In this document: positions 12,270 to 16,863 of the stretch, piece by piece
Layout of the letters: each line of letters begins with the position of its first letter
How positions within the stretch are numbered: the stretch's first letter is position 1
Virus record (IMG/VR): IMGVR_UViG_3300027833_000080
Location: 1-46,837 of that record
Source of the DNA: a virus
Length of the DNA stretch: 46,837 nt
Reading direction: 5' to 3' (one strand)
Made by a program: the position numbers and the translations under genes
The notes under the pieces: generated by a model
What the model saw: only the letters and a program-made list of their open reading frames with translations
What the model was told of the DNA's origin: nothing
The model's database searches: none

Positions 12270-12875
12270 ATGGGATTTTGGACAGAAAATACGACAGAGC
12301 CTAAAAGAAACTTTCGTTGGCGCGTAAGAATGGCAAACATCAACTTGCCAACTGGACCACTGGGTACCATACCAGGGATAACTAATGATGTATTGTGGTG
12401 GGCAAAGACAGTTGATACGCCGAGCTACAACATTACAGACGTAACTCACTCATTTTTTGATAATGAATATAAGTTTCCGGGACGAGTTCAGTGGCAGGAT
12501 GTTAGTATGACCTTGGTAGATCCTATTTCTCCAAACGCAGTCTACATTACTAACCAAATTGTTCTAGCTTCTGGATATAGTATTAAGGGCTTAACTGAGA
12601 TAAATGGAACACCCACATCAATAACTAAGTCAGGTGCAAACGCGGCTGTTGGCGATGTAACCATAGAAATTCTCAGCGGAACAGGCAACATTGTAGAAGC
12701 GTGGCAAATGAAGAATCCATTCATTACTTCTGCTAAGTTTTCAACACTAGATTATACCAATGATGATATGAGAACCATCGATCTAACTTGGAAATACGAC
12801 TATGCCACTTGTACATCCAATGATGTCAATGGGGTAGCATACGGTGGCACAAACCCCACACAGTTTGAGCCCTAA
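12270..12875 (+). CDS. 19: Tail tube protein gp19 (201 aa)
   Basis: The protein starts FWTENTTEPKRNFRWRVRM and continues with WWAKTVDTPSYNI, EYKFPGRVQWQDVSMTLVDP and PFITSAKFSTLDYTNDDMRTIDLTWKYDYA, the set of segments typical of T4-type gp19 tube subunits. gp19 hexamers stack to form the inner tube through which DNA passes. Length is close to T4 gp19 (163 residues) with a small insertion in the middle. It directly follows the sheath gene, as in T4. The next gene is a paralog. Confidence 0.88.
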   Translation: MGFWTENTTEPKRNFRWRVRMANINLPTGPLGTIPGITNDVLWWAKTVDTPSYNITDVTHSFFDNEYKFPGRVQWQDVSMTLVDPISPNAVYITNQIVLASGYSIKGLTEINGTPTSITKSGANAAVGDVTIEILSGTGNIVEAWQMKNPFITSAKFSTLDYTNDDMRTIDLTWKYDYATCTSNDVNGVAYGGTNPTQFEP

Positions 12876-12888
12876 CAAGAGGTGACTA

Positions 12889-13449
12889 ATGTCCTTTTGG
12901 ACTGATACAGAAAAACCGGTCGAACCCAAGCGCACTTATCGCTTTAGATTATCATCTGATGGCGATATTGGTTTGGGTGCGGATAAAAAAAGCTATTGGT
13001 GGAACATAAAAAAGGTTGATAAGCCTTCTTTTAATGTTAGTTCAAACAAATATCGCCTTATAAACCACGAAATAAACATTCCAGGTATTGCAGTGTGGAA
13101 CCCAATTAACATTGAAATGGTCGATGTTGGTGAGCAAGTAGATGCACTACTTAAACACCTTGGCGCATCTGGGTATAACCCTAGGAATTTAAGTGAGGAC
13201 AGCGGCATTGCGAAATCACACTCTGGTTTGCTTCTGAACCTTACGATAGAACAATTGAATGGCGCCGGTGTGGCTTTGGATAGTTGGTTGCTCGAAGGAG
13301 CATTCATAACAGATGTCAAGTTTGGCAATCTAGATTATTCATCGGACGAATTTGTAATGGTAACCCTAACAATAGCATATGACTACGCTTACTTATCTAC
13401 CTCAAGTACTGGTGCTAGTACAACGCCACCTGCCGCTGTTGCAGATTAA
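12889..13449 (+). CDS. Second tail-tube-like protein, gp19 paralog (186 aa)
   Basis: It shares the same skeleton as the preceding tube protein: FWTD.EKPVEPKRTYRFRL at the start, WWNIKKVDKPSFNV, INIPGIAVWNPINIEMVD, then WLLEGAFITDVKFGNLDYSSDEFVMVTLTIAYDYA. The two have diverged strongly, so this is an old duplication with a separate role: either a minor tube subunit or the tube initiator at the baseplate (in T4, gp54 and gp48 have tube-like folds). It is 13 bases downstream of the tube gene in the same operon, with GAGGTGACT before the ATG. Confidence 0.75.
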   Translation: MSFWTDTEKPVEPKRTYRFRLSSDGDIGLGADKKSYWWNIKKVDKPSFNVSSNKYRLINHEINIPGIAVWNPINIEMVDVGEQVDALLKHLGASGYNPRNLSEDSGIAKSHSGLLLNLTIEQLNGAGVALDSWLLEGAFITDVKFGNLDYSSDEFVMVTLTIAYDYAYLSTSSTGASTTPPAAVAD

Positions 13450-13467
13450 CAATACAATGGAGAAATA

Positions 13468-14301
13468 ATGAGTAGAAACTCAGACCGGCTTGGGCTTAAT
13501 AGCCAGCCAGAAAGCGGAGAAACACCGCCACAAATGTTTAACCCACTAAGTTTTACGGCTCCGACAGAGTTCGTAAACCTACCCTCAAAAGGTATAGGAT
13601 ACCATAAAGAACACCCATTACATGGCAGAGATTCTTTAGAAATCAGATACATGACAGCAAAAGACGAAGACACTCTTTCAAACCAATCTTTAATTAAAAA
13701 AGGCGTTGCTCTTGAGAGATTACTTGAAAACATCATCATAGAGTCCGATATTGACCCCCTAACGCTTCTTATTGCAGACCGCAACGCAATACTCATCCAA
13801 GCTCGTGGGACAGCTTACGGGTTCGACTATGAAGCTCGTGTGACATGTCCCAACTGCGAGACGAACAACACCATAGTATTTGATTTAAGAGAGCCAAGTG
13901 TTATCGGTGGATACAATGAAGACCAGAACACTGTTAGGATATCTGACGATGGACTGTTTGCAACGACACTACCGTTCTCAAAGTTCAACATCAAGTTTCG
14001 TCTGGCCAATGGAATTGAAGAAAGCAAAATTGCTCAGATGCTAATCAATGATAAGAAAGAGTTTTCCATATCCGAACAATATAAAGAAATGATATTGTCA
14101 ATTGAGGGACATACTGACCAAGATGTCATAAACCATTTTGTCGACAACATGCCAATGGCAGACTCTGCTCACTTTAAAGCATGTTTAAAACATACATCGC
14201 CATCTATCGATATCTCTGAGACGCTTATATGCAAAAGCTGCTCTCATGAGAAGGAGGTACGGGTTCCATTCGGGACCAACTTTTTTTGGCCTAACCCCTA
14301 A
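13468..14301 (+). CDS. Baseplate hub assembly protein, gp26-like with two CxxC zinc motifs (277 aa)
   Basis: The N-terminal EFVNLPSKGIGYHKEHPL segment (residues 34-51) followed by IRYMTAKDEDTLSN is characteristic of the T4 baseplate (gp26) family. Two Cys pairs, CPNC at 127-130 and CKSC at 255-258, probably bind one zinc. gp26 helps assemble the baseplate hub in T4; in position just before the tape-measure gene it corresponds to the tail assembly chaperone of other phages. The gene ends in CCC-TAA and an open +1 frame continues for 56 codons, so a frameshifted longer product is possible (see findings). Ribosome binding site TGGAGAAATA precedes the ATG. Confidence 0.72.
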   Translation: MSRNSDRLGLNSQPESGETPPQMFNPLSFTAPTEFVNLPSKGIGYHKEHPLHGRDSLEIRYMTAKDEDTLSNQSLIKKGVALERLLENIIIESDIDPLTLLIADRNAILIQARGTAYGFDYEARVTCPNCETNNTIVFDLREPSVIGGYNEDQNTVRISDDGLFATTLPFSKFNIKFRLANGIEESKIAQMLINDKKEFSISEQYKEMILSIEGHTDQDVINHFVDNMPMADSAHFKACLKHTSPSIDISETLICKSCSHEKEVRVPFGTNFFWPNP

Positions 14302-14303
14302 GG
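14281..14303 (+). other. Candidate +1 programmed frameshift site (T7 run and CCC-TAA)
   Basis: The last codons of the gp26-like gene are AAC-TTT-TTT-TGG-CCT-AAC-CCC-TAA. A proline tRNA on CCC (14296-14298) next to the stop codon could slip one base forward to CCT, after which AAG-GCA-ATG continues into the downstream open frame ending at 14470. CCC plus a stop in the A site is a known type of +1 shift site. No experiment supports it here. Confidence 0.45.
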
Positions 14304-14305
14304 CA

Positions 14306-14470
14306 ATGGAAGGTATCTACGAAGGATTCTTTATTTTGAAACATTTCGGAGGATGGTCTTTTACGGAGATTCATTCTCTACCAATCGGTCTAAGGACGTG
14401 GTTCATCGAAAGATTGAAGAAACAGTTCGAAGACGAAGCAAAAGAGATGAAGAAAGCCCAGAAGCGATAA
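14306..14470 (+). CDS. Short helical extension or small protein after gp26-like gene (54 aa)
   Basis: The frame (+1 relative to the gp26-like gene) is open from well upstream (14246) and ends at TAA 14468-14470. If it starts independently, ATG 14306 is the first good codon, but the only Shine-Dalgarno-like bases (AAGG, 14301-14303) lie just 2 bases before it, which is too close. The product has an aromatic-rich helix (GIYEGFFILKHFGGWSFTEI) and ends in a charged helix with many Lys/Glu. It may be read only as the tail of a frameshift fusion, as for tail assembly chaperones, or through coupled re-initiation. A terminator overlaps its last codons. Confidence 0.55.
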   Translation: MEGIYEGFFILKHFGGWSFTEIHSLPIGLRTWFIERLKKQFEDEAKEMKKAQKR

Positions 14471-14526: not shown

Positions 14527-16863
14527 ATGGGTGATGGTGCAGAAGGTGGAGACATATCAGTAGGTGCTTTGATGAAAGCCATCAAGGGACTCAAAGATCA
14601 AGAAAGGAAAGAGTTGCTAGCCGCACTTGGTGCTTCTGGTACTAGTTCTTTCATAACAGATAGTGATGTCAAGAAAGCTGATGATTACAAAAGAGTTATT
14701 CAGGCAACAGCTGCAGCCATGGGAGACATGGCAACGGCCGCAACTGCCCAACAAGCCCTTTTGGAGTCAGACTTTTTAAAGCAAATAAAAGATATGTATA
14801 AAGATGATTCTGTTGTAGATCTCGAAAAGAAACTCAACGATGCCAGAGAGGCTATGGAAAAGTTCAAGGAGGGCGATGAAGGTGCATTAGGTAGACTATC
14901 GGGCCTAATGCCAGACGAGGCATTGAAAAGACTACAGACTGGGCTTGAACAAACTCAAAATTTAAAAGATGCACAAGAAGCATATGGACAAACGACGGAT
15001 ACGGTCGCTAAGAGTATTGGAAAATTATATGGAATAACAGATCAATACTCAACAAGTACCCTAGGAGGCCTAGTTGAACTGTCGGCTGCCTTTGGTAAAG
15101 GTGGAAAACAATCTAAATTAGCGGCAGACTCGCTTCAAATGTCTTTAAAGAAAATATTTAACATGGGAAACATCGGGCTTAACATGCTCAATGGTATAAA
15201 AGACATTTCTTCGAAAATGTTCACCAACTTTGATAATGCTCAAGCTGCTCTCGCAAAGTCGACTGCTCAAGGTGACAAGTTTAGAGGAGTTCTTTATGAC
15301 ATGGGTCGTGAAGGAAATAGTTTCGGAATCACAATGGCCAACGCGGGTGAGGCAATCGGAACCATGGTTTCACAAACATCGAATTTTACCTCAATGTCCA
15401 AGTCGCAACAAGCAAGTATCGGCTTGACTGTTGCCAAAATGGAAAAACTAGGTGTCGCGACAGCAGATTCTGCTGCTATATTTCAAAACTTCAACCAAGG
15501 CTTGGGGATGACCGCCAATGAGTCTATTGCAATGCAGACCGAACTAGCCATGGCCGGGCAGTCAATTGGCATCAGTGCATCGAAAATTACAAAAGATTTC
15601 AATGCGTCTCTTTCAACGTTGATGGTTTATGGTAGAGAGTCAGTAGATGTATTTAAAGGCATAGCAGCAGCGGCTAAAACTGCTGGTGTTGAAACTTCAA
15701 CATTATTAAATATCGCTTCCAAATTTGACACCTTTTCTGGTGCAGCAGAGGGAGCTGGAAAGTTGAACGCTCTATTGGGAACTCAACTTTCCACAACCGA
15801 AATGTTGTTGGCGACGGAAGATGAGCGCATACGAATGTTGGTTGAGTCAGTTCAGGCGCAAGGCGTCGCATTTCAAGACATGGACCGCTTTAGCCAGAAA
15901 GCAATCGCAAATGCGGCTGGTATAACAGATATGGCCGAGGCCAACCGAATATTCGGAATGTCATTATCAGAATATGACGAAAATGAAAAAAAACTAAACT
16001 CTTCGACAGCAGCACAAAAGAAGCTCGATGAGGCTATCTCTAAAACAATACCGGTTATGGACAAGTTCAAACTACTCGGTGCAGAGATTGCCGTATCTCT
16101 TCAGCCTTTTCTGGAAACACTTGAAGGTGCAGCTGATGGATTAATAAAAACGTTCCAAGGAATGGACAAGGAAACCAAGGAAATGATAGGCAACATCATT
16201 GGTTTGGTTGGCGCGTTGTTGGTTTTGGTGCCAATTTTCAAAGCAGGTGGTGCCTTGATGACTGGTCTAAAGCTGGCCGGTGCAGTATTGCTACCCGGTA
16301 TCGGTGTTGGTGGTTCTGTGGCGGCTACAGGTATGACTGCTGCTGGAACTGCTGGGGCAACGGCTGCACCAGGCCTTTTGGCATTTGCAGGGAGTACGGC
16401 TTTAATTTCACTTCAAATTATAGGCATTGTTGGTGCTGTAGGATTAGCCATTGCAGCTATTGCAATGCTCGTTCAAGCCTTTGGCTCTAGTGAGTTCGAC
16501 TTCAAAACCGCCGAAGCAGAGGCAAAATTAAAGGGTTTCGAAGCAAAAACCGCCGAGGCAGCCGCATCTATCGTAAATGGTCCACATGAGGCAGCCGTTG
16601 CATCTATTGCATCCATCGTTGGGCAGATGACAAAGCTATCGCAAGATGTAAAAGTTAGTTCCACAATTGAAAACCTGGCTCTAATTACAGCAGGTACATC
16701 TACTAGCATCACAGGCGAAAGAGTTGTTGCGTCTCAAACAAATGTGATGGCAAATGTTCAAAACTCTTTCGAGGGCTTGAATCTAAAGGTAAAAATTGGA
16801 GAGCGAGAGTTCGATGCCTATATGGAAGACTCTTTTCTTCCTAAAGTTCACGGGGCAACATAA
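14527..16863 (+). CDS. Tail tape measure protein, gp29-like (778 aa)
   Basis: The protein is long, largely helical and rich in Ala/Gln/Lys, with coiled-coil-like stretches in the first 160 residues and a strongly hydrophobic block near residues 553-658 (GNIIGLVGALLVLVPIFKAG ... LISLQIIGIVGAVGLAIAAI). This is the usual shape of tape-measure proteins, whose hydrophobic segments may help DNA cross the host inner membrane. It comes right after the assembly-chaperone-like gene, where tape measures are normally found. T4 gp29 has about 590 residues. The stop codon overlaps the next ATG by one base. Confidence 0.8.
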   Translation: MGDGAEGGDISVGALMKAIKGLKDQERKELLAALGASGTSSFITDSDVKKADDYKRVIQATAAAMGDMATAATAQQALLESDFLKQIKDMYKDDSVVDLEKKLNDAREAMEKFKEGDEGALGRLSGLMPDEALKRLQTGLEQTQNLKDAQEAYGQTTDTVAKSIGKLYGITDQYSTSTLGGLVELSAAFGKGGKQSKLAADSLQMSLKKIFNMGNIGLNMLNGIKDISSKMFTNFDNAQAALAKSTAQGDKFRGVLYDMGREGNSFGITMANAGEAIGTMVSQTSNFTSMSKSQQASIGLTVAKMEKLGVATADSAAIFQNFNQGLGMTANESIAMQTELAMAGQSIGISASKITKDFNASLSTLMVYGRESVDVFKGIAAAAKTAGVETSTLLNIASKFDTFSGAAEGAGKLNALLGTQLSTTEMLLATEDERIRMLVESVQAQGVAFQDMDRFSQKAIANAAGITDMAEANRIFGMSLSEYDENEKKLNSSTAAQKKLDEAISKTIPVMDKFKLLGAEIAVSLQPFLETLEGAADGLIKTFQGMDKETKEMIGNIIGLVGALLVLVPIFKAGGALMTGLKLAGAVLLPGIGVGGSVAATGMTAAGTAGATAAPGLLAFAGSTALISLQIIGIVGAVGLAIAAIAMLVQAFGSSEFDFKTAEAEAKLKGFEAKTAEAAASIVNGPHEAAVASIASIVGQMTKLSQDVKVSSTIENLALITAGTSTSITGERVVASQTNVMANVQNSFEGLNLKVKIGEREFDAYMEDSFLPKVHGAT

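Follow-up and report, generated by a model that had tools for sequence, protein, structure and literature searches.

Organization of the locus

The window, a stretch of 46,837 nucleotides from an uncultured T4-type phage, contains a gene for a gp26-like protein and, in the +1 frame over the end of this gene, a small gp51-like domain, this pair lying directly 5' of a tape measure-like gene. The features of the locus are the following:

13468-14301, + strand: gp26-like ORF, whose 0-frame product of 277 aa would be the short chaperone (PF12322 and phrog_150 matches)
14251-14258, + strand: Shine-Dalgarno-like AAGGAGGT inside the gp26-like gene, noted for the enrichment of GGAGG in relatives
14280, + strand: C, a non-T base that keeps the following TTT TTT T from forming a U_UUU_UUU -1 heptamer
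14281-14292, + strand: putative slip site TTT TTT TGG CCT, with slip codons 14281-14283 (UUU_U) and 14284-14286 (UUU_U)
14288-14470, + strand: +1-frame gp51-like C-terminal domain of 60 aa, beginning GLTPKAMEGIYEGFF, stop at 14468-14470 (protein conservation, homology to cyanophage gp51)
14299-14301, + strand: 0-frame stop TAA
14306-14308, + strand: ATG within the +1 frame, probably not a start
14527-16863, + strand: tape measure-like gene (phrog_1533, E=1.5e-7)

The gp26-like protein matches PF12322 with 57.2 bits, above the curated cut-off of 24.5, and phrog_150 with E=1.5e-15. An earlier note on this DNA had described a gp26-like gene ending AAC-CCC-TAA after a T7, a +1 frame open across this site and continuing for 56 codons to 14470, no proper ribosome binding site for a separate start at 14306, and a tape measure gene as the next gene. 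Our analysis bears out this description. The 3' end of the gene, read from the window, is AAC TTT TTT TGG CCT AAC CCC TAA, with the T7 at 14281-14287; the +1 frame has no stop across the slip site and runs for 56 further codons; upstream of the ATG at 14306 there is only AAGG, at 2 nt, a spacing shorter than a normal ribosome binding site requires; and the ORF that follows is the phrog_1533 match listed above.

Three further observations concern the surroundings. Two adjoining tail tube-like genes (phrog_4542) are present at 12270-12875 and 12889-13449, instead of one. The sequence ACTATTTA occurs ten times in the window, always on the + strand (860, 5510, 6308, 8914, 12239, 14496, 24780, 31187, 38452 and 43289), against 1.8 expected, several times some 30-50 nt 5' of gene starts, that of the tape measure included, and is a candidate late promoter of the window's lineage. 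Finally, a terminator-like hairpin, ATGCCC...GGGCATTTTTTT, is found in many loci (L058, L066 and L072, for instance) just 3' of the +1 ORF and before the tape measure gene; between these two genes the window has a less regular sequence than the hairpin of its relatives.

Conservation of the downstream frame and position of the probable shift

The scan of IMG/VR with the gp26-like protein as query yielded 80 loci, from 99% to 42% identity, in which the 0-frame nearly always ends with GAC TTT TTT TGG CCT, a few codons and a stop, the small domain being in the +1 frame. About 180 more loci, of which nearly all show the +1 arrangement, came from scans in which the gp26 query was that of Flavobacterium phage immuto, Microcystis phage Mel-JY01 or phage LR756508; the gp26 of Streptococcus phage GXN1 gave a single partial relative. 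The conservation set comprises 252 related viral loci, represented by 142 sequences after dereplication at 90% identity, and the related sequences are not fully independent in the counts below. Seven named phages also keep the domain in the +1 frame, which remains open past the 0-frame stop; their slip regions read as follows:

Flavobacterium phage immuto: TTT CTT TGG
Microcystis phage Mel-JY01: TTT TTT TGG
Phage LR756508: TTT CTA
Listeria phage LIS04: TTT TTT AGT
Bacillus phage SP-15: TTT TTT CAC
Streptococcus phage GXN1: TTC TTT CGT
Rhodothermus phage RM378: TTT TTT TGG

At the immuto (L082, 3333-3443) and Mel-JY01 (L083, 3234-3470) loci, database annotations have small hypothetical genes overlapping the +1 domain, their starts being either within it or further 5'.

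The second frame stays open past the 3' end of the first ORF and encodes a protein sequence conserved across 56 diverse loci, and the substitution pattern follows the reading frames. Upstream of the slip site, substitutions distribute as 222/179/581 over 0-frame positions 1/2/3; downstream they become 584/208/110, which corresponds to the third position of the +1 frame, and in the overlap between slip site and stop the figures of 53/24/31 lean towards the +1 frame.

The earlier note had placed a possible +1 frameshift on CCC-TAA, by analogy with the tail assembly chaperones encoded upstream of tape measure genes. A programmed +1 shift that fuses the gp26-like protein with the downstream frame, as in such chaperones, is supported: the +1 ORF and its frame are kept in about 250 viral loci, far more than chance would allow. 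The choice of CCC-TAA as slip site is refuted by the earlier note's own criterion, because the CCC next to the stop is not conserved: the last codon is CCC, TCC, ACC, GCC, CTC, CGA, AGA, AAA or others, and already in near relatives the CCC gives way to TCC, ACC or GCC, all of which leave Thr (ACN) in the +1 frame. CCC-TAA is present in the window and CCC-stop does work in Listeria phages (PMC5009743), but the conservation of the +1 frame starts at GGC, 5' of CCC, and the 0-frame stop varies among relatives both in position, 3-11 sense codons past the slip codon, and in identity (TAA, TGA or TAG). In one locus (L024) the usual 0-frame stop is lost and the +1 frame is kept. Slippage at CCC-TAA, which would yield the tryptic junction peptide VPFGTNFFWPNPK from the window sequence, is accordingly the least probable of all the routes considered, and we reject it. 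The conserved T-rich site lies four codons 5' of the stop that follows CCC; the T7 had been mentioned in the earlier note, and not named as the slip site.

The conserved putative slip site

The sequence TTT-YTT-TGG-CCT, several codons 5' of the 0-frame stop, is nearly invariant over the 252 loci, so that a slippery sequence is conserved near the end of the first ORF. In the 142 representatives the slip codon is TTT in 120, CTT in 21, CTA in one and never TTC. For Phe, TTC is thus used in 0/120 slip codons versus 351/1431 codons (25%) elsewhere in the gene (Fisher 1.4e-14), and at 60% dereplication the count is still 0/27 (Fisher 6e-4). The Pro codon of the motif is CCT in 142/142, versus 27% elsewhere in the gene, an invariance due in part to the fact that CCT forms a Leu codon, CTN, in the +1 frame. 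Over 113 independent pairs, the twelve bases of TTT NTT TGG CCT together have received 10 substitutions, and the third-position substitutions, some 30-40 per site in the neighbouring codons, fall to 0, 4, 1 and 0 across the motif. Either UUU_Y at the first codon, or UUU_U/CUU_U at the second, is kept in 251 of the 252 loci; L008, with TTT GTT TGG, is without a good shift site. The codon after the slip codon is UGG, rarely UAC or UAU. UUU_U ahead of a sense codon is normally a weak shifter. The search for a downstream RNA structure acting as stimulator gave no signal (mean z from -0.35 to -0.7).

Two other events on the T run would lead to the same downstream frame. A -2 slippage, with one extra Phe and the tryptic junction peptide VPFGTNFFFGLTPK, is possible on T7 and is used by phage Mu (PMC5009743), but the variants TTC TTT TGG, TTT CTA TGG and TTT GTT TGG would re-pair poorly after such a shift, and yet most of them fit UUU_Y/YUU_U for a +1 shift; we therefore hold this route to be improbable. 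Transcriptional slippage deleting one U from part of the mRNA is more improbable still: T7 is found in most members, but the immuto group (TTT CTT TGG) and the L250 group (TTC TTT TGG) have T runs of at most four and retain the +1 arrangement nonetheless. The +1 frameshift at TTT-TTT-TGG, for which the tryptic junction peptide would be VPFGTNFFGLTPK, is very probably real.

A GGAGG sequence accompanies the site in the +1 clade. This strongly conserved sequence precedes the slip codon in 31 out of 51 representatives, versus 4.2 expected from codon usage, and hardly occurs in other parts of the gene. Its distance to the slip codon, 19, 26 or 29 nt in most cases and 18-42 nt across the relatives, is variable and exceeds what the prfB mechanism allows; GGAGG may act by stimulating the shift, by causing a pause or in some other way.

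Absence of a conserved start for the +1 domain

The +1 domain could be a separate small gene, expressed from its own start or by termination-reinitiation at the ATG at 14306, 4 nt past the stop. In the window, as in its near clade, an ATG does lie just past the stop, a Shine-Dalgarno-like sequence, AAGGAGGT, is located upstream of the domain, and in L087, L260 and L265 the domain is made from its own ATG. Against this, the ATG of 14306 is conserved in the near clade only, being replaced by I, V, L or Q in other relatives, the +1-frame codons 5' of it are conserved as protein (GL[TSN]...), and the slip motif, otherwise invariant, decays exactly where a separate ATG exists: in L260, L265 and L087 this ATG is in another frame, and the motif is decayed in the first two and absent in the third (TTC TTG TAT CCT and TTC CTT TGG CCA among these loci). 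Nor is a start codon maintained behind GGAGG. A start on the TTG six codons before GGC was considered and rejected: the 0-frame Phe codon that overlaps it is TTT in 25 representatives and TTC in 22, and TTG is therefore not maintained. Near the site, the +1 frame is free of ATG, GTG and TTG in only 29 of the 142 representatives and contains scattered ones in the others, so that independent starts are unlikely because they are not conserved, and not because they are absent. We regard a separate gene as improbable, if marginally less so than the -2 route.

Relationship with gp26 and gp51 of the T4 superfamily

The +1 domain profile aligns with that of cyanophage gp51 (hhalign probability 96.5, E=7e-10, in a single comparison), and cyanophage gp51 aligns with the C-termini of T4-type gp51 (probability 97.4, E=1.4e-11, also in a single comparison). 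Aligned directly with seven T4-type gp51 tails, the +1 domain profile gives a weak match (E=0.029, probability 1.7), and the link with T4 gp51 thus runs through cyanophage gp51. T4 gp26 and gp51 both belong to PF12322/phrog_150, gp26 spanning positions 14-235 and gp51 positions 13-280 of a profile of 282, so that the C-terminal tail is absent from gp26, the short form, and present in gp51, the long form. Both have been described as hub assembly chaperones (PMC3004832). The slip motif is missing from the T4-type gp26 genes (T4 has GAG TTC TTT GAG). In a FastTree tree of 63 proteins, T4 gp26 and gp51 are sister groups (support 0.98) nested with the -1 phages described below (0.946), and all 36 representatives of the +1 type fall in one clade (0.81).

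The gp26-like protein and the +1 domain were folded separately. The predicted structure of the 0-frame protein has a mean pLDDT of 87.7. Foldseek searches with it returned nothing significant (E 3.2), and VIA-align placed the HK97 tail assembly chaperone 2ob9 first, with Z 5.7 (below Z 8), an rmsd of 5.0 and 87/104 residues, the next row being at 3.9. This best match, which concerns the N-terminal part of the model, is supportive of a chaperone fold, not proof of it. The +1 domain is predicted to form three helices (pLDDT 84) and, alone, matched none of the PDB structures; a PDB sequence search gave one weak, meaningless match.

Direction of the probable shift

In the Kyanoviridae, gp26 is likewise followed out of frame by gp51 (57 aa, for example in S-PM2), a homologue of the +1 domain. 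Unlike in the window, gp51 lies in the -1 frame, behind a U_UUU_UUC heptamer, and is annotated as a separate gene. The sequence nnT TTT TTC, which constitutes the heptamer, is present in 52/52 distinct loci, and the gp51 frame is open through it, often without any ATG; the Kyanoviridae gp26-gp51 pair (L280:8165-8364 and L281-L360) is apparently an unannotated -1 frameshift. The arrangement looks the same in pf16, ACP17, VH7D, OLIVR6 and Atu_ph07. The short length of cyanophage gp51 has been remarked upon in a paper in which frameshifting is not mentioned (PMC3037559).

The window has no X_XXY_YYZ heptamer, with C at 14280 and the product in +1, and a T directly 5' of TTT occurs in 2/142 representatives of the +1 clade versus 73 expected. 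The -1 sister group having U_UUU_UUC and the +1 clade TTT-rich codons without a preceding T, the same Phe-Phe dipeptide would carry either signal according to codon choice. A Shine-Dalgarno-like sequence is also found in the -1 clade, about 10 nt 5' of the heptamer, with a weaker enrichment (19/40 versus 9.4). This spacing resembles that of dnaX.

Discussion

The model we propose is that of one gene with two products, a short 0-frame chaperone and a minority +1 long form constituting a G/GT-like pair, and we estimate its probability at about 0.88. The majority of the ribosomes would read the 0-frame to the TAA at 14299-14301 and release the short gp26-like chaperone. In a minority of them, the peptidyl-tRNA paired with the UUU that precedes UGG would move forward by one base (UUU_U here, CUU_U or UUU_C in relatives) and translation would continue in the +1 frame, GGC CTA ACC ..., to generate the long form ending in the gp51-like helical domain. 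By analogy with lambda gpG and gpGT, many short and few long chaperones would then associate with the tape measure protein and assist the initiation of the tail tube. Homology, a conserved slip site, +1-frame coding through the overlap and the lack of a conserved start all argue for this model in the sequences compared, from which we infer the slippage itself, as well as its efficiency and a role of the two forms as chaperones of the tape measure protein.

The lambda gpG/gpGT pair likewise lies directly 5' of the tape measure gene and consists of a short form and a rarer long form with a common N-terminus and a slip near the end of the first ORF. It differs from the pair of the window by its usual -1 direction and by its protein family, gpG instead of gp26/PF12322. 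A +1 shift in a phage structural gene is known from the Listeria phages PSA, A118 and A500, on the CCC-stop that is not conserved here, and is very likely in the archaeal myovirus HSTV-2 (PMC5009743). In bacteria, UUU_Ynn is described as particularly liable to +1 slippage, and prfB shifts on CUU_U (PMC5009743); in these cases and in influenza PA-X (UUU_CGU), which the TTC TTT CGT of phage GXN1 resembles, the tRNA in the P site moves its pairing forward by one base on UUU_U, UUU_C or CUU_U, as would occur in the clade of the window. prfB differs by the stop codon in its A site, where this clade has UGG, rarely UAC/UAU, and by a Shine-Dalgarno sequence about 3 nt 5' of the slip codon, against 19-29 nt for GGAGG.

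Among long-tailed phages, T4 is listed as the exception with regard to frameshifted tail chaperones (PMC5009743). Its gp26 and gp51 share PF12322/phrog_150 with the protein of the window and are encoded by two paralogous genes, whereas the window has one gene and a frameshift; since the paralogues correspond to a short and a long form, gene duplication seems to have taken the place of the frameshift in T4. We consider it fairly probable that gp26/gp51 of the whole T4 superfamily form a single G/GT-type system, in which the shift on one ancient Phe-Phe dipeptide flipped direction by codon changes alone (U_UUU_UUC for -1 in cyanophages and their relatives; V_UUU_YUU_U, V being any base other than U, for +1 in the lineage of the window) and was lost in T4 by duplication into genes 26 and 51. 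No report of frameshifting in gp26/gp51 genes was found in the open-access papers searched, an earlier mention elsewhere being possible.

In conclusion, the best reading of these sequences is that a lambda G/GT-type chaperone pair is spread through the T4 superfamily in -1 and +1 variants; they suggest that this superfamily frameshifts widely and in both directions, T4 itself being the derived two-gene case. If true, this would explain why cyanophage gp51 resembles a truncated T4 gp51 (PMC3037559), would give T4 gp26 and gp51 a concrete and testable role, and would correct the gene calls of many cyanophages and marine phages. Furthermore, one dipeptide shifted in two directions would allow the codon choices that determine the direction of a frameshift to be compared in a natural setting.
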